A DNA stretch of 64,000 nt from Martelella sp. NC20 (GTDB taxonomy: Bacteria; Pseudomonadota; Alphaproteobacteria; Rhizobiales; Rhizobiaceae), in the NCBI RefSeq assembly GCF_013459645.1, contig NZ_CP054861.1:4824001-4888000 (forward strand). The letters are read 5' to 3'. Position 1 is the stretch's first letter. Each line of letters opens with the position of its first letter. The notes under the pieces were generated by a model. That model saw only the letters and a program-made list of their open reading frames with translations, had not been told where the DNA came from and made no database searches. A program made the position numbers and the translations under genes. This document shows, piece by piece, positions 4,520 through 12,729 of this stretch.

Positions 4520-5338
4520 TCAGTGCGCGGCGTTCAGGCCCCGCTCCGACAAGGCCGGCCATTGCCCGAGAAAAACCTCCCGGGTCCGTATTCCCGGCGA
4601 TTGCCGGTTGCGCTGCTCCGCCTGCGTCAGAGTCACGAACACAAGCGTATCATCGCCGCGTTCGGCCCAGCCGACATACCAGCCCCAGCCATGATCGTAA
4701 TCGAAACTGCGATCGGCGCGACGGGGATACGCTGCCCCGGTCTTGCCGCGCAGGAGCCAGCCGTCCATGTCTTGCTGCTCAAGCAGGCTCTGCGCCTTGG
4801 CCATGGCCTCACGATCGACCGGCAGAGCGCCGAGAACAAGCCCGCGCAGGAAGACGGCCTGCTGATAGGGCGAAATCTTCAGCGACGACGAAATCCAGGC
4901 GCGATCAAGTCCATTGTCAAAACCCGGATCGCCTGAAAAGTCGGCGTTGCCGTAGCCAAAGGCCTCGCCATAACGCGTAAGCGTCGCCGGCCCCATCAGA
5001 TGGGTCAGACGCTGCGAATACCAGACCACGGAATAGCGCATCCAGCGCGCGGGGTCCGTGTCCTGCCTCCATGCCGCGCCGCCCCAGTCGGGATCGCCAT
5101 CGCGATAGGCCATGACCGGGTGATGGGCATCCTGCAACACGCCGACATCGAAAGCCATGACCGCCAGCGCCACCTTGAATGTCGATGCCGGCGTGACCTC
5201 GGATCGACAATCGCCATCCTCCACAACAACCGTACCGGAGCTGGCGTTCATCACGAGCGTACAGACAAGCGCAGCCCCGGCCGAACGGGCAAGAACCGGA
5301 AACAGGATCAGCGCGAGGACGGCAAACAATCGGATCAT
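4520..5338 (-). CDS. Class D (OXA-type) beta-lactamase
   Basis: The 272-residue protein has a signal peptide (about residues 1-22) and all hallmark motifs of class D serine beta-lactamases. The active-site Ser52-Thr-Phe-Lys55 (STFK) provides the nucleophile and the carbamylated lysine. Ser103-Val-Val105 is the SxV motif, Tyr129-Gly-Asn131 is YGN, Trp148 matches the tryptophan that stabilises the carbamate, and Lys199-Thr-Gly201 is the KTG motif. WYSQRL after SVV is also typical of OXA enzymes. It should be a periplasmic penicillin-hydrolysing enzyme, but substrate range and expression cannot be read from sequence. No mobile element or integron signal flanks it, so it looks like a resident chromosomal gene. 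Confidence 0.92.
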   Translation of the reverse strand: MIRLFAVLALILFPVLARSAGAALVCTLVMNASSGTVVVEDGDCRSEVTPASTFKVALAVMAFDVGVLQDAHHPVMAYRDGDPDWGGAAWRQDTDPARWMRYSVVWYSQRLTHLMGPATLTRYGEAFGYGNADFSGDPGFDNGLDRAWISSSLKISPYQQAVFLRGLVLGALPVDREAMAKAQSLLEQQDMDGWLLRGKTGAAYPRRADRSFDYDHGWGWYVGWAERGDDTLVFVTLTQAEQRNRQSPGIRTREVFLGQWPALSERGLNAAH

Positions 5339-7261: not shown

Positions 7262-7572
7262 GGGTCTTCCTTTCTTAAATCCGGGCGTTCAGCACATATG
7301 ACCGCTCGGGTCCTCCTCAATGTGCTCCTGCGCCAAACGCAGGTATCGCCGCTTGTGGTGGTGGTAACCCATATTAACCGGGCTGTCACTATCGGTTGGC
7401 GGCAAAACGGTACTCTCCGGTACGGTTAATCCGAAAACGGGCATCGCCTCCTAAGCAATTGCTTACGTGGACCGCGCTCAGCCATAAGCAGATGGACGAC
7501 GAGGCTGGCAGGCAGCAGATCGGGGTCGTTGCGCTCCACTTCCGGCGCGCCTTCCCAAGAGAGGAAATTCTA
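7262..7572. other. Divergent intergenic region ilvD / PepSY
   Basis: About 310 bases separate ilvD (minus strand) from the PepSY gene (plus strand) and must hold both promoters. Apart from the candidate small ORF at 7289-7444, I see no terminator, tRNA-like structure or convincing sigma-70 promoter. The PepSY ribosome-binding site GAGGAA is at 7561-7566. Confidence 0.5.
7289..7444 (-). CDS. Candidate small ORF upstream of ilvD
   Basis: A 51-codon ORF starts at an ATG preceded by a perfect AGGAGG (plus-strand 7447-7452) only two bases away, and stops 27 bases before the ilvD start in the same direction. The product starts MPVFGLTVPESTV, and its second half (MGYHHHKRRYLRLAQEHIEE) is basic-amphipathic and more protein-like than random. 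The spacing from AGGAGG to ATG is unusually short, and some codons (TTA, GTA) are rare for this genome. It could be a real small protein, an uORF affecting ilvD, or chance. I do not recognise the sequence. Confidence 0.25.
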   Translation of the reverse strand: MPVFGLTVPESTVLPPTDSDSPVNMGYHHHKRRYLRLAQEHIEEDPSGHMC

Positions 7573-7833
7573 ATGATCCGTTCCATGATGCTCGCGGTTA
7601 CGCTCATTGCCGCCCCTGTTGCCGCCTTCGCAATGCCTGCCGTTGGCGATATCGTCGGCACCAACCCGACGGATGCCGCCGCCGCGCTGCAAAAAGCTGG
7701 CTGCGACCTCAAGGGCTTTGAAGCCGAGGGCGGCATGATCGAGGCGAAGTGCTATGACGCAAACAACAAGATGCACGAAGTCTACATCAACCCGAAGACC
7801 GGCGCGATCGCCAGAATTTCCGGGAAGGACTGA
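7573..7833 (+). CDS. Exported PepSY-domain protein
   Basis: An 86-residue protein begins MIRSMMLAVTLIAAPVAAFA, a clear Sec signal peptide. The mature part is one small PepSY-type domain (DAAAALQKAGCDLKGFEAEGGMIEAKCYD, then HEVYINPKTGAIARI), with two cysteines that could pair in the periplasm. GAGGAA at 7561-7566 supports the start. Its stop is one base before the start of the cytochrome b561 gene, so the two are in one operon. PepSY proteins of this small type are often encoded beside cytochrome b561 genes; their role there is not settled and may be sensory or modulatory. Confidence 0.8.
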   Translation: MIRSMMLAVTLIAAPVAAFAMPAVGDIVGTNPTDAAAALQKAGCDLKGFEAEGGMIEAKCYDANNKMHEVYINPKTGAIARISGKD

Positions 7834-7834
7834 A

Positions 7835-8473
7835 ATGTCGACCGGTAGACGAACAGGGACTGGGGCAGCGATTGCCCCGCCCAACCCGTGGGACCCCGTG
7901 GTGCGCCTCAGTCACTGGCTCATCGCCGCCGCCGTCATCATCAACGGCCTGCTCTCGGAGCCGGGCGGAGCCGTCCACATCTGGATCGGCTGGATCGCGA
8001 TGGCGGTGCTGGTCATTCGTCTGGTCTGGGGGTTCATCGGCCCGAAGGAAGCCCGGTTTACCGCCTTCCTTCCGGATCCGCGCGCCGCGGTATCGCATCT
8101 CTTCTCGCTGTTGCGCGGCAAGCCGAAGGAATATCCCTCGCACAACCCGGCCGGCGCGATCATGGTCTATGCGCTCTGGGCATGTCTTGCGGCGGTGATC
8201 GCGACGGGGTTGATCCTGACCGACGCAAAAACCCCGATCGCCATCGCCAAGGAGCGGGTTGCGGTCGAACAGGGCGACTGGTCCGTGCTTGCAGGGGATG
8301 GCGAAGGCGAGGACCCCTCCGAGGACTCGGGCGAAATCGTGAAAGAGATCCATGAAACGGCGGCCAATCTCATGCTAGTATTGGCGCTCGTTCATGTCGC
8401 AGGCGTTGCGGCCGAAAGCTACGCGCTCAGGAGAAATCTTGTGCGCCCGATGATCAAGGGTCCACCGCGTTGA
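7835..8473 (+). CDS. Cytochrome b561 family di-heme membrane protein
   Basis: The 212-residue integral membrane protein starts with NPWDPVVRLSHW, the hallmark of the b561/HyaC-like cytochromes. Four helices are visible, at about residues 25-42, 48-68, 107-128 and 175-195. Candidate heme-ligand histidines are His27, His48, His173 and His187, two near the start and two near the last helix. An acidic loop (about 155-172, DGEGEDPSEDSGE) lies between helices 3 and 4. It would carry electrons across or within the inner membrane. The ATG at 7835 follows GGGAAGG at 7822-7828. The gene ends in a TTGA overlap with the next gene. Confidence 0.87.
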   Translation: MSTGRRTGTGAAIAPPNPWDPVVRLSHWLIAAAVIINGLLSEPGGAVHIWIGWIAMAVLVIRLVWGFIGPKEARFTAFLPDPRAAVSHLFSLLRGKPKEYPSHNPAGAIMVYALWACLAAVIATGLILTDAKTPIAIAKERVAVEQGDWSVLAGDGEGEDPSEDSGEIVKEIHETAANLMLVLALVHVAGVAAESYALRRNLVRPMIKGPPR

Positions 8474-9009
8474 CGAAAACCCGGAAACCAACACGGCAAG
8501 GGCGGTCGCAAACGATCGCCCTTGCGATCTTCATGATGCTGCAGAGCGTGGCAGCCCTGTTCTTCGTCGCCGATGCCATTCGAGACCTTGCCGATGCCCC
8601 CGTGAACGCTGAGTCGATCATCGAGGCGTTGACGGCATTCGTTCTCGTGCTCGGCATATTCATGGCCGGCTGGCAGCTTCGGCTGACGCTCGAGCGCATG
8701 GCAGCCCAAGGGCGCGCCCTCGATATCGCCCGCGGCGATTTCGTCCGCATCATCGAAACCCAGTTCGATATCTGGGGGCTGACGACAGCGGAGCGGGAGG
8801 TCGGCATGCTCGCCCTGAAGGGCATCGATCTGGCGGAAATCGCGCGCCTGCGCGGATCGGCCCAGGGCACGGTGCGCGCCCAGATGACCCGGATCTATGC
8901 CAAGGCCGGCGTTTCCGGCCGCGCGCAGTTTGCGGCATGGTTTGTCGAGGAGCTTCTGGGAGACGGCATCTCGCCGCCCGAGGCGGGTGAAAAACCAAGG
9001 TCGACTTGA
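8470..9009 (+). CDS. Membrane-anchored LuxR-type transcriptional regulator
   Basis: The 179-residue protein has two transmembrane helices (about residues 14-35 and 52-70) followed by a charged linker and a C-terminal LuxR/GerE helix-turn-helix (residues about 105-162: LTTAEREVGMLALKG, then IARLRGSAQGTVRAQMTRIYAKAGVSG). It lacks a receiver or PAS domain, so any signal is probably sensed by the membrane part or by a partner. The TTG start at 8470 overlaps the stop of the cytochrome gene (TTGA), which argues for translational coupling and a shared function. The two N-terminal helices place the DNA-binding domain in the cytoplasm. Confidence 0.85.
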   Translation: MTKTRKPTRQGRSQTIALAIFMMLQSVAALFFVADAIRDLADAPVNAESIIEALTAFVLVLGIFMAGWQLRLTLERMAAQGRALDIARGDFVRIIETQFDIWGLTTAEREVGMLALKGIDLAEIARLRGSAQGTVRAQMTRIYAKAGVSGRAQFAAWFVEELLGDGISPPEAGEKPRST

Positions 9010-9157
9010 GCCGAAGGCGCGGCCCTTGCCGGGCAATCCCGCCCCGGCCTCACGACCGATACACAAAAATGTGGTCGTAAAGTTTCTTGTTAAAGCTGAA
9101 ACTATCGACGATCTTCAAACGTAACAGTTCTTGACGAACATTACGGGAGACATTTCG

Positions 9158-10135
9158 ATGTCCGCTTACAAGCCGCCGCATATCCCCGCGTCGCAGATCA
9201 CGCCGGAGCACATCTACCTGAAGCGCCGCACGCTTCTGGCGGGCCTTGCGGCGGGCGCAACCTTTGCCGCGGCCCCGGGCGCGTTCGCCGCCGGCGAGGA
9301 CCTCGCCCAGGGCGAAGCGCTGAAAACGGTGAAAGGGCCGATCCCCGCGCCCGCCGACCGCAAGGTCACCAGCTACGAGGACATCACCCACTACAACAAT
9401 TTCTACGAGTTCGGGACCGGCAAGGAAGATCCCTATCGCAACTCCGGCGATTTCCAGCCCTACCCCTGGTCGTTCGAGATCGATGGCATGGTGCAGAAGC
9501 CGCAGACCGTCGACATCGAAACCCTGATGACCAAATTCCCGCTGGAAGATCGCACCTACCGGATGCGCTGCGTGGAAGCGTGGTCGATGGTGATCCCCTG
9601 GGTCGGCATTCCGCTGAAATCGATCCTCGATCTCGCCGAACCGACCGGCTCGGCGAAATATGTCGCATTCCAGACCGTGGTGCGCCCCGAGCAAATGCCG
9701 GCACAGCGCGGTTTCGGCCAGCCGATGCCGTGGCCCTATGTCGAGGGGCTGAGGCTTGACGAGGCCAACCACCCGCTGACGATCATCGCCGTCGGGCTTT
9801 ACGGCAAGACGCTGCTGAACCAGTCCGGCGCGCCGATGCGGCTCGTGGTGCCGTGGAAATACGGCTTCAAGGGCATCAAGTCGATCACGAAGATGACGCT
9901 GACCGACAAGCAGCCGCCCAACAGCTGGAACCTGCTGCAGCCCAGCGAATACGGTTTCTACGCCAATGTGAACCCCGACGTGCCGCATCCCCGCTGGAGC
10001 CAGGCATCCGAACGCGTGATCGGCGAAGGCGGCGGCTTCTTCGGCGGCGAGCGCATTCCGACCCTGATGTTCAACGGTTATGGCGACGAGGTGGCGAGCC
10101 TTTACAAGGGCATGGACCTCAAGGCCAATTATTGA
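9158..10135 (+). CDS. msrP: Protein-methionine-sulfoxide reductase, molybdoenzyme catalytic subunit MsrP
   Basis: The 325-residue protein reduces oxidised methionine in periplasmic proteins, using molybdopterin. A Tat signal is visible (Lys-Arg23-Arg24-Thr-Leu-Leu then a hydrophobic stretch ending AFA at about 42-44). Cys138 in [15 protein letters not shown] is the molybdenum ligand conserved in the sulfite-oxidase fold. The start [10 protein letters not shown] is preferred to an in-frame TTG nine codons earlier, because GGGAGA lies seven bases before it. The gene is followed by msrQ after 11 bases. It depends on cofactor synthesis, to which moaA and mobA in this window contribute. Confidence 0.95.
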
Positions 10136-10146
10136 GCACCTGAGCC

Positions 10147-10815
10147 ATGACCGATATCGCAGCCAAGAGACGCCCCGCCGCCAAGAGCAACTGGTGGCGT
10201 CCGGCCTCCGTCTGGGCGCTCTATGCGCTCGGACTGGCGCCCGCCGTCTGGTATTTCTACCTCGGCGCCACCAACCAGCTCGGCGTCGACCCGGTGAAGA
10301 CCTTCGAGCATGTGCTGGGCATCTGGGCGCTGCGCTTTATCCTGGCAACGCTCTGCATTTCACCACTGCGTGATCTCGCTGAGATCAACCTGATGCGCTA
10401 CAGGCGGGCGCTGGGCCTGCTCGGCTTCTATTACGTCTGCTTCCATTTCCTGGTCTATCTCGTGCTCGACCAGCGCATGGATATTTCGATGGTGGTGGAG
10501 GACGTGATCAAGCGGCCGTTCATCACCTTCGGCATGATGGCGCTGGTAATGCTGATCCCGCTCGCCGTCACCTCCAACAACTGGTCGATCCGCACGCTGA
10601 AAAAGGGCTGGATCCTGATCCACTCCTTCATCTACGAGATCACCGCGCTCGCCACCCTCCACTTTGCCATGTCGCGCAAGGTCATCGGCCCGGAGATCAT
10701 GCTCTACATCGCGATCGCCGTCCTTCTCCTCGGCTACCGCTTCGCGCGCCCCGCGATCACGGAACGCAAGCGCGCCCGCAAGAAGGCGGCACGGATGCAA
10801 AGGGCGGCGAAGTAG
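10147..10815 (+). CDS. msrQ: Heme-binding membrane subunit MsrQ
   Basis: A 222-residue integral membrane protein of the ferric-reductase-like family delivers electrons from the quinone or flavin pool to periplasmic MsrP. Six hydrophobic segments are visible. Histidines in FYYVCFHFLVY, WILIHSFIYEI and ALATLHFAMS are the expected heme-binding positions. The pattern WALRFILATLCISPLRD near residues 60-76 is typical of the family. It lies directly after msrP, the standard arrangement. A basic C-terminus (ERKRARKKAARMQRAAK) faces the cytoplasm. Confidence 0.94.
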   Translation: MTDIAAKRRPAAKSNWWRPASVWALYALGLAPAVWYFYLGATNQLGVDPVKTFEHVLGIWALRFILATLCISPLRDLAEINLMRYRRALGLLGFYYVCFHFLVYLVLDQRMDISMVVEDVIKRPFITFGMMALVMLIPLAVTSNNWSIRTLKKGWILIHSFIYEITALATLHFAMSRKVIGPEIMLYIAIAVLLLGYRFARPAITERKRARKKAARMQRAAK

Positions 10816-11009: not shown

Positions 11010-11417
11010 ATGAAAGTCATGGTACTGGTCAAGGCGACCGAAGACAGCGAAAACGGCGTGATGCCGACGCCCGAATTGCTGGATGCGATGGGCAAGTTCA
11101 ACGAGGAACTGGCAAAGGCCGGCATCATGCTTGCCGCTGACGGGCTGAAACCCTCCTCCAAGGGCAAGCGTATCGCCTTCGACGGCGCGAGCCGCACCGT
11201 CATCGACGGGCCGTTCGCCGAGACCCGCGAACTCGTCGCCGGCTACTGGGTCTGGGAGGTGAAGGATATGGACGAGGCCGTTGCCTGGGTCAAACGCTGC
11301 CCGAACCCGATGTTCGGCCCGAGCGAGATCGAAATTCGCCCCTTCTACGAACTGGCGGATTTCGCCGACGTTGCGACCGAGGAACAGCTCGCCCGTTTCG
11401 AGGGCCGCAACCGCTGA
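11010..11417 (+). CDS. YCII-related (DGPF-domain) protein
   Basis: A 135-residue cytoplasmic protein starts MKVMVLVKATEDSENG and contains TVIDGPFAETRELVAGYWVWEV at about residues 68-89, with the DGPF motif that names this family. The fold is a ferredoxin-like dimer (YciI). AAGGGAGA at 10997-11004 supports the ATG at 11010. It lies 49 bases before an ECF42 sigma-factor gene; genes of this type are the characteristic neighbours and targets of ECF42 factors. The biochemical function of DGPF proteins is unknown. Confidence 0.88.
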   Translation: MKVMVLVKATEDSENGVMPTPELLDAMGKFNEELAKAGIMLAADGLKPSSKGKRIAFDGASRTVIDGPFAETRELVAGYWVWEVKDMDEAVAWVKRCPNPMFGPSEIEIRPFYELADFADVATEEQLARFEGRNR

Positions 11418-11466
11418 GCGCCGAAACGGGATTGACCGGCAAGACGGATGCGCCATAGTCCGGTTC

Positions 11467-12729
11467 ATGGACGAGGACGACAGCCGCAAGGCCATAGAGG
11501 CAGCCTTCCGCATCGAGCGGGCCCGGCTCGTTGCCGGGCTCGTCCGCTATGTCGGCGATCTCTCGCTTGCGGAAGAATTTGCCCAGGAGGCGCTTGTCGC
11601 AGCCCTTTCGGCATGGCCGAAAGCCGGCATTCCGGCCAATCCCGCCGCTTGGCTGATGACGACGGCAAAGCGCCGCGCCATCGACCATGCCCGCCGGCGG
11701 CAAACCGAAGCGCTGAAGGAAAGCGCCGTCACGCTGGCTTTCTATGAAATCGGGACCAGCCATGCCGATGCGGCGGAGGCCGCGATGGACGATGATATCG
11801 GCGATGAACGCCTCGCCCTGATCTTCACCGCCTGTCACCCGGTGCTCACGCCCGCCTCGCGCGTGGCGCTGACGCTGAAAGTCGTCGCCGGACTTTCCAC
11901 CGCCGAAATCGCCCGCGCCTTCGTCACCGGCGAGGCGACGGTCTCGCAGCGGGTGCTGCGGGCAAAAAACCAGCTCGGCGCGGCCCGGCCGGTTTACGAG
12001 GTTCCCACCGGGCCGGAACGCGTCCAGCGCCTCGCCTCGGTGCTGGAGGTGGTCTATCTGATTTTCAACGAGGGCTATGCTGCAACAAGCGGAAATGCCG
12101 TGCTTCGCCCGCCGCTTTCGGAAGAGGCGATGCGCCTTGGCCGCATTCTGGCAGCGCTCCTTCCCGAGGAGCCGGAAGTGCTGGGTCTGCTGGCCCTGAT
12201 GGAGCTGCAGGCCGCCCGCTTTCCCGCCCGTATCGATCGGGACGGCGTGCCGGTACCGATCACGGAACAGAACCGCGCGCGCTGGGACAGGCTGTTGCTG
12301 ACCCACGGCTTTTCCGCTTTGGAGAGGGCCTTCGCCGCCGCCGGGGGACAGCCGGGGCCCTACACCCTGCAAGCCGCGATCGCCGCCCGCCACGGCCTTG
12401 CGCCGAGGGCAGAGGATACCGACTGGCGAACCATCGCCGCGATCTACGATCGCCTCATCGACCTCGTCCCCTCGCCCGTGGTCGCGCTCAACCGCGCGAT
12501 CGCCCACAGCATGGCCGGTGGCCCGGAGCTTGGGTTGACGCTGCTCGCCGAGATCGAGCACCTGCCCGCCCTTGCAGTCCCGCTTTATGCCGCCAGGGCC
12601 GATTGCCTGCTGCGCGCCGGACATTACCCGGAAGCGGCCGATCTCTTCGCCAGGGCGATGACGCTCTCGGGAAACCACTCCGAGAAGGCCTTTTTCAAAC
12701 GACGCATCGAGATCTGCCGGAGAAACTGA
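11467..12729 (+). CDS. ECF42-type RNA polymerase sigma factor with C-terminal TPR-like extension
   Basis: The 420-residue protein is far longer than ordinary ECF sigma factors. Region 2 is at about 10-80 (LSLAEEFAQEALVAALSAWP, AWLMTTAKRRAIDHARR). Region 4 is at about 115-170 (IFTACHPVLTPASRVALTLKVVAGLSTAEIARAF, followed by VSQRVLRAKNQL). The remaining 240 residues are helical repeats (AALLPEEPEVLGLLALMELQ, VVALNRAIAHSMAGGPELGL, LLRAGHYPEAADLFARAM). This domain order is that of the ECF42 group, in which the extension replaces an anti-sigma factor as the control element. The ATG at 11467 has only a weak ribosome-binding site. The preceding DGPF gene supports the assignment. Confidence 0.9.
   Translation: MDEDDSRKAIEAAFRIERARLVAGLVRYVGDLSLAEEFAQEALVAALSAWPKAGIPANPAAWLMTTAKRRAIDHARRRQTEALKESAVTLAFYEIGTSHADAAEAAMDDDIGDERLALIFTACHPVLTPASRVALTLKVVAGLSTAEIARAFVTGEATVSQRVLRAKNQLGAARPVYEVPTGPERVQRLASVLEVVYLIFNEGYAATSGNAVLRPPLSEEAMRLGRILAALLPEEPEVLGLLALMELQAARFPARIDRDGVPVPITEQNRARWDRLLLTHGFSALERAFAAAGGQPGPYTLQAAIAARHGLAPRAEDTDWRTIAAIYDRLIDLVPSPVVALNRAIAHSMAGGPELGLTLLAEIEHLPALAVPLYAARADCLLRAGHYPEAADLFARAMTLSGNHSEKAFFKRRIEICRRN

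Follow-up and report, generated by a model that had tools for sequence, protein, structure and literature searches.

A 64,000-nucleotide stretch of the Martelella sp. NC20 genome (contig NZ_CP054861.1, positions 4,824,001 to 4,888,000; hereafter the window) carries a triad of tightly packed genes that encode an exported PepSY protein, a cytochrome b561 and a membrane-anchored LuxR-type regulator, LuxR(TM), and that are preceded by a composite promoter element, TMAGC-N4-GCTTA-N12-TMAGC-N9-ATSGA, which is a new finding of the present analysis. The best overall explanation, to which we assign a probability of roughly 0.55, is that the triad forms a self-regulating transmembrane redox module whose regulator, as comparison between genomes suggests, has a single predicted target in the genome: the element at 7452-7496, which precedes its own operon.

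The strands, limits and tight junctions of the three genes (one base between the PepSY and b561 genes, and a TTG start of luxR that overlaps the TGA stop of b561) are as a first-pass annotation of the bare sequence had described them (Table 1). That annotation made its reading depend on linkage of the regulator to b561 in other genomes, and such linkage is found: in 74 of 80 loci from named genomes (kept from 108 confirmed regulator relatives), PepSY and b561 genes lie directly upstream of the regulator gene and share its strand, and the 10 of 13 Martelella genomes, NC20 included, that contain a true ortholog of the regulator all have it in a triad (10/10). In the PepSY protein C44 and C60 are kept in 74 of 74 close relatives, and within the triad clade this cysteine pair could be a switch or a structural disulfide. 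The cytochrome combines a profile match (PF01292) with four membrane histidines, H27, H48, H173 and H187, each conserved in at least 73 of 75 relatives, as expected of a prokaryotic cytochrome b561; of the di-heme cytochrome b561 first proposed, the family is confirmed, and the di-heme state is supported by these histidines, with heme binding a prediction. The last two of these histidines are 14 residues apart, like those of the formate dehydrogenase cytochrome subunit.

Two hydrophobic segments of the regulator begin near residues 16 and 49, and a monomer structure model (mean predicted local distance difference test score, pLDDT, 82.5) contains a first transmembrane helix (TM1, 9-42), a long continuous helix (47-102) comprising the second transmembrane helix (TM2) and a stalk, and then a helix-turn-helix domain (HTH, 106-164), in agreement with the two-helix membrane anchor already recognized. 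The modelled chain unites transmembrane helices with a DNA-binding domain, as a transmembrane transcription regulator does, and a Pfam profile scan of it found no receiver or kinase domain, so that the reported lack of a receiver also holds. Three residues of the membrane part, F32, E52 and L59, are invariant across 77 aligned regulators, distant clades included. The match to GerE, the Pfam LuxR family, scores 17.5 bits, under the curated cut-off of 23.5, and a distant relative (L150) clears that cut-off at 33.1 bits; the best NCBIfam match of the DNA-binding half is the LIC13292 family transcriptional regulator (NF047608, E 8.8e-16), a family to which the regulator does not belong at 58.5 bits against a cut-off of 200. 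Its closest relatives, judged among the best 120 of 571, are Martelella proteins, and a PDB sequence search returned weak NarL/DevR-type matches at most.

The core of the promoter element is a palindrome, TAAGC-N4-GCTTA, which occurs upstream of PepSY in 74 regions (73 loci and the window) with no mismatch in 33, one mismatch in 40 and two mismatches in 1; 38 of the 40 one-mismatch palindromes have TCAGC for TAAGC. Among 1480 mononucleotide shuffles it appeared 0, 6 and 89 times with 0, 1 and 2 mismatches, respectively. A logo of 76 rows, restricted to those with at most one mismatch (L106, with two, was dropped and L145-147 were added), gives the consensus GTMAGC-N4-GCTTA-N12-TMAGC-N9-ATSGA, in which the invariance of the palindrome is partly due to selection, because L106 was dropped, and in which C30, A40, T41 and G43, outside the palindrome on which the rows were anchored, are kept in 74, 70, 73 and 70 rows. 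The ATSGA box is a possible transcription start; if its A is the start, as L148 hints, the palindrome would span approximately -40 to -27. An Rfam scan gave no matches and a sigma-70 consensus scan no promoters.

A single perfect palindrome exists in the 6.1-Mb genome, that of this operon, which is also the only one within the window; at up to one mismatch the palindrome is at chance level within the window, and the looser TMAGC-N4-GCTKA is at chance in the whole genome (9 places versus 12 in a reversed control). Extended to the third half-site, the element is present exactly once in 13 of 15 genomes that encode the regulator and in none of 7 chosen as lacking a close one, and the reversed-pattern control is absent from all 22; these genomes were chosen by hand, the regulator has a weak, distant match in one of those surveyed (G055), and the loci that the exact motif describes are those from which it was derived.

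In a regulator tree of 64 rows, which samples the triads and has several long branches, the rows that have the TMAGC element group together in a single clade of 36 rows (support 100/99), within which L106 has two mismatches and L089 could not be assessed for the element. The solo regulator L148, which has neither PepSY nor b561, keeps the full element at a possible ATG start of its own gene, and triads L155-157, in another supported regulator clade, are without it. Related motifs seen by eye in distant groups, within which no perfect inverted repeat was common to at least three loci, prompted two broader patterns. On a 19-position pattern with TMARC half-sites, 9 of 34 loci score at least 16, each at the promoter of the operon that contains the regulator gene (L145-148 at 17-19, L168 at 19/19, L169, L170, L110, and L153 on the opposite strand), and 34 mononucleotide-shuffled loci score at most 15.5. 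The core TAARC-N4-GYT lies near the first gene (-400 to +100) in 14 of 35 operons, L145-148 being four of these, compared with 23 of 1131 control windows and none of 16 PepSY-b561 loci that lack the regulator. Upstream of the variant operons that pair PepSY with a ferric reductase, the same architecture recurs with TAAAC-type half-sites. Since the element tracks the clade of the regulator and not the PepSY-b561 genes, the control that the regulator exerts is most likely limited to its own operon, as far as promoter comparison can indicate.

Table 1. Positions in the window of the triad, its predicted operator and the adjoining msrPQ genes
Feature	Position	Strand	Evidence or remark
Segment with operator and triad	7430..9047	+	Occupies the position of a DUF1902-HicA pair in Martelella G001
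Palindrome TAAGC-N4-GCTTA, predicted operator	7452..7465	.	At most 1 mismatch in 73/74 upstream regions
Third half-site TCAGC, 12 bases past palindrome	7478..7482	+	T, A, C of TMAGC kept in 66, 69, 74 of 76 rows
ATGGA (ATSGA box), 9 bases past third half-site	7492..7496	+	A, T, G kept in 70, 73, 70 of 76 rows
PepSY_2 protein, exported, 86 aa, C44 and C60	7573..7833	+	PF13670 31.1 bits (cut-off 24.3)
Cytochrome b561, four helices, likely di-heme, 212 aa	7835..8473	+	PF01292 100 bits
Two-helix membrane LuxR-type regulator, 179 aa, TTG start	8470..9009	+	Hydrophobic segments, weak GerE match, structure model
msrP	9158-10135	+	MsrP profile 467 bits; neighbour, outside module
msrQ	10147-10815	+	MsrQ profile 149 bits; neighbour, outside module

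The partners of the regulator are exchanged among its relatives. We classified 107 of 109 regulator loci (L079 and L103, with no regulator open reading frame (ORF) of 60 aa, were left out) as PepSY plus b561 (78), PepSY only (8), PepSY plus a ferric-reductase-like gene (2), a ferric-reductase-like gene only (1), b561 plus the heme protein SHP (3), b561 only (2, one of which, L089, is cut by a contig end) and none (13). This census is biased to triads, as 80 of the 109 loci came from the close-relative search; an even sample of 23 loci across the class holds 7 triads, 3 loci with PepSY only, 3 with b561 and SHP, 1 with b561 only and 9 with none. PepSY adjoins the regulator in 88 of the 107 loci, 8 of these having no heme gene that we found, and b561 is missing from 24 of the 107. 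We thus rejected both PepSY and b561 as universal partners of the regulator. Pfam confirms representative partner proteins. L107 and L153 each encode two acidic PepSY-like proteins and L172 encodes one; these five match no Pfam family and were assigned by a purpose-built profile or by position. PepSY-like proteins beside regulator relatives in L107, L108, L153 and L166-170 have long Asp-rich tails, a composition that suggests metal ion binding. Locus L153 contains two adjacent, convergent pairs of a PepSY-like gene and a LuxR(TM) gene, and the solo regulators L105, L090 and L093, from Tabrizicola or Cypionkella relatives, adjoin what by eye is a PerM-like permease gene.

PepSY-b561 pairs also exist under a different regulator. 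Cytochrome b561 of this type was found in 49 of 289 genomes of the class, and 30 b561 loci divide into 7 with PepSY and LuxR, 2 with LuxR and no PepSY, 10 with PepSY and no LuxR, and 11 with neither. In 20 loci without LuxR(TM), hand-picked from 55 b561 matches, PepSY stands beside b561 in 19 and an OmpR-type response regulator lies within 2 kb in 15; PepSY had been known in advance for 10 of the 20, and a response regulator for 4 of those, and the 10 not seen before yielded 9 with PepSY and 8 with a response regulator. Gene limits in this survey are those of the longest ORF, a rough kinase motif was excluded from the counts, and four of the response regulators were confirmed by Pfam. No OmpR-like response regulator was found within 2 kb of any of 78 triads (71 of which have 2 kb of sequence on both sides).

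We picture the module as follows. The regulator would bind the element as a dimer while remaining in the membrane, and a change at the periplasmic face would reach the DNA-binding domain through the continuous TM2-stalk helix. Cytochrome b561, together with PepSY, would be the effector, linking the quinone pool to a periplasmic acceptor by electron transfer. PepSY may in addition modulate the regulator, much as DbfQ does a histidine kinase, and a periplasmic modulator of the DbfQ kind is plausible by that analogy. A more specific version, which we hold tentatively, has PepSY read the periplasmic redox or metal state and directly gate a membrane LuxR protein with a single target, in a family that keeps its operator architecture and swaps the heme effector (b561, ferric-reductase type, SHP chain).

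Several observations weigh against a self-regulating module of this kind. Operator binding and regulation are deduced from comparison, and the regulator may be an activator or a repressor. One genome (G440) has a perfect palindrome but a different third half-site, the triad of another (G184, L149) has no site at up to two mismatches, the solo regulators L090, L093 and L105 sit in the TMAGC clade with no element nearby, 21 of the 35 distant operons are without even the core motif, and both distant patterns were framed after some of the same promoters had been viewed. PepSY cannot be required in all cases, since 19 of the 107 regulator loci have no PepSY neighbour. Its cysteine pair is missing from triads L145-147 (the same places as L112-114) and L156, on which ground we rejected the pair as a generally necessary switch. 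Transcription could, moreover, read through from the triad into msrPQ in the four Martelella genomes where they are linked.

Other readings of the same evidence have to be weighed against the self-regulating module. It is conceivable, if doubtful, that the regulator senses alone through its two helices and short periplasmic loop, responding to membrane state, quinone or a ligand at E52, with PepSY and b561 as outputs only: the invariance of E52 and F32 fits this, as do the 13 of 107 regulators without any partner, among them L148 with its operator, but the loop between the helices is short and the frequency with which PepSY adjoins the regulator, also where no heme gene was found, suggests more than an output role. 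An unlikely alternative is that the element belongs to some other, unlinked regulator or is a special promoter, and that the membrane LuxR acts elsewhere. The pairing of LuxR with the element is itself predicted, from a motif derived from the same loci, and the odd third half-site and ATSGA box are unusual enough to invite such a view; against it, site count follows regulator presence (13/15 versus 0/7), the element stays with solo L148 and changes with the regulator clade, and its core is absent before 16 of 16 PepSY-b561 loci that lack the regulator.

Least probable, and in our view very unlikely, is the reading of the first-pass annotation, in which sensing falls to the cytochrome, with PepSY, and msrPQ is under the regulator's control, as an envelope redox-sensing and repair module. 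It draws on the translational overlap of b561 and luxR, on the position of msrPQ directly downstream in the same direction here and in three near relatives, and on the plus strand between 9009 and 9158, where no terminator-like site was found. The exchange of partners nevertheless speaks for the cytochrome as an effector rather than an obligatory sensor; regulator relatives without b561, and PepSY-b561 pairs that lack the regulator and often stand beside a response regulator, make it more likely an output, and the sensor role is not supported. Nor is the linkage to msrPQ, on which the first-pass annotation also relied, conserved: MsrP and MsrQ are encoded downstream of the triad in 2 of the 80 named loci (some contigs end early) and in 4 of the 10 regulator-bearing Martelella genomes, and msrP lies elsewhere in the other six, on another contig in four of them. 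Every one of the 13 Martelella genomes carries msrP, including the 3 that lack the regulator; no copy of the operator precedes msrP in a scan of the window, and the region upstream of msrP (window 9050-9160) is strongly conserved in triad-linked and unlinked genomes alike. We therefore rejected msrPQ as part of the module. What stands of the earlier interpretation is a conserved triad with a membrane regulator.

Because msrPQ is unlinked in most genomes and has its own conserved upstream region, it most likely became a neighbour of the triad through local rearrangement, to judge from the compared loci. In seven examined Martelella genomes (G001, G002, G003, G005, G007, G008, G010) ilvD faces msrPQ with no triad in between. 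Alignment of the window with G001 gives 91% identity across 169 columns next to ilvD and 92% across 142 bases next to msrP, flanking an unrelated middle in which G001 has a DUF1902-HicA pair (Pfam) where the window has the triad. The pair lies at 6157-6600 of L231, similar small ORFs occur in two more genomes (L232 and L235), and the gap between ilvD and msrPQ seems to take up foreign pieces. The start of msrP is most likely the ATG at 9158, the listed ORF beginning at a TTG at 9131. By eye, its upstream region contains GAAAC (9098-9102) and, after N17, CGTA (9120-9123), which we take to resemble the promoter consensus of extracytoplasmic function (ECF) sigma factors and which is a possible ECF-type promoter. 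An ECF sigma factor is encoded further downstream in the window (11449-12729, plus strand; TIGR02937 50.2 bits, over cut-off; it also matches SigI and SigJ models weakly), and a small gene with no NCBIfam match (11010-11417) stands ahead of it. In Brucella, an ECF sigma gene is reported to adjoin msrPQ homologs, with the sigma gene and the homologs both contributing to hypochlorous acid (HOCl) resistance (PMC8315932).

On the other side of the triad, the motif ACGGTACN2TMCGGTACG (window 7407-7424) lies approximately 130-150 bases before ilvD and is conserved in Martelella loci with or without a triad (24 of 268 loci retrieved, many being overlapping copies). Behind ilvD is a chromosomal class D beta-lactamase gene (4520-5338, minus strand; NF000270 299.6 bits, cut-off 280).

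If the predicted single site per genome is correct, the whole regulon would be one promoter, and the triad would be a very small model of a transcription factor acting from the membrane, with two helices, one stalk and one predicted DNA site per genome; the predicted operator offers a direct handle for reporter and binding tests. The literature searched, which covered few subscription papers, yielded no description of a PepSY-b561-LuxR operon, in line with the earlier statement that no system with this set was known. One of the closest known systems is DbfQRS of Vibrio cholerae, in which a small exported PepSY gene lies upstream of and adjoins signalling genes and the PepSY protein DbfQ is reported to interact with the sensory domain of the kinase DbfS; the same source gives PepSY genes as lying near two-component genes more than 60 times as often as expected (PMC12714742). 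The triad shares the small exported PepSY protein beside a membrane signalling protein (74/80 loci), but it has no histidine kinase and response regulator: its signalling protein is a single membrane LuxR with neither kinase nor receiver, and a b561 gene stands in between. Elsewhere, a link to iron reduction has been reported for membrane proteins of PepSY-like type (PMC8238504), and lanthanides are bound by a protein that contains two PepSY domains (PMC11845868).

SHP operons, as described by Meyer et al. (PMC2909971), combine a membrane diheme cytochrome b with a kinase, a response regulator and a periplasmic accessory protein, Orf1, together with diheme cytochromes c and SHP, and so resemble the triad in joining a membrane diheme cytochrome b to a local regulator. 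The triad differs in having neither SHP nor cytochrome c and in a regulator that is one protein; SHP (PF09086, DUF1924) has no match in the NC20 genome. A relative of the triad regulator is nonetheless carried by the SHP operon in three loci (L150, L151, L154), and among 20 sampled SHP loci 19 have b561. A loose motif picks out a PepSY-like gene in 4 of the 20, and Pfam bears out two of the 4; we guess that Orf1 is itself a PepSY protein. ToxR and TcpP have an N-terminal winged helix, and the triad regulator has instead a LuxR-type HTH after TM2. They share with it the condition of a one-component regulator that acts from the membrane (PMC10269533, in whose text the terms GerE and LuxR are absent).

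A further close comparison is with the OmpR-type PepSY-b561 pairs of other alphaproteobacteria, which have the same two effector genes with a regulator next door, but one that is unrelated to LuxR(TM) and whose loci lack the operator core (16/16). One membrane protein would in the triad do the job of what appears to be a two-component system elsewhere, and from the gene neighbourhoods it looks as though the single protein has taken the place of the two-component system. Two apparently unrelated regulators, a two-component system and a membrane LuxR, would then serve the same PepSY-b561 pair, a comparison that opens the signalling role of PepSY to comparative study.

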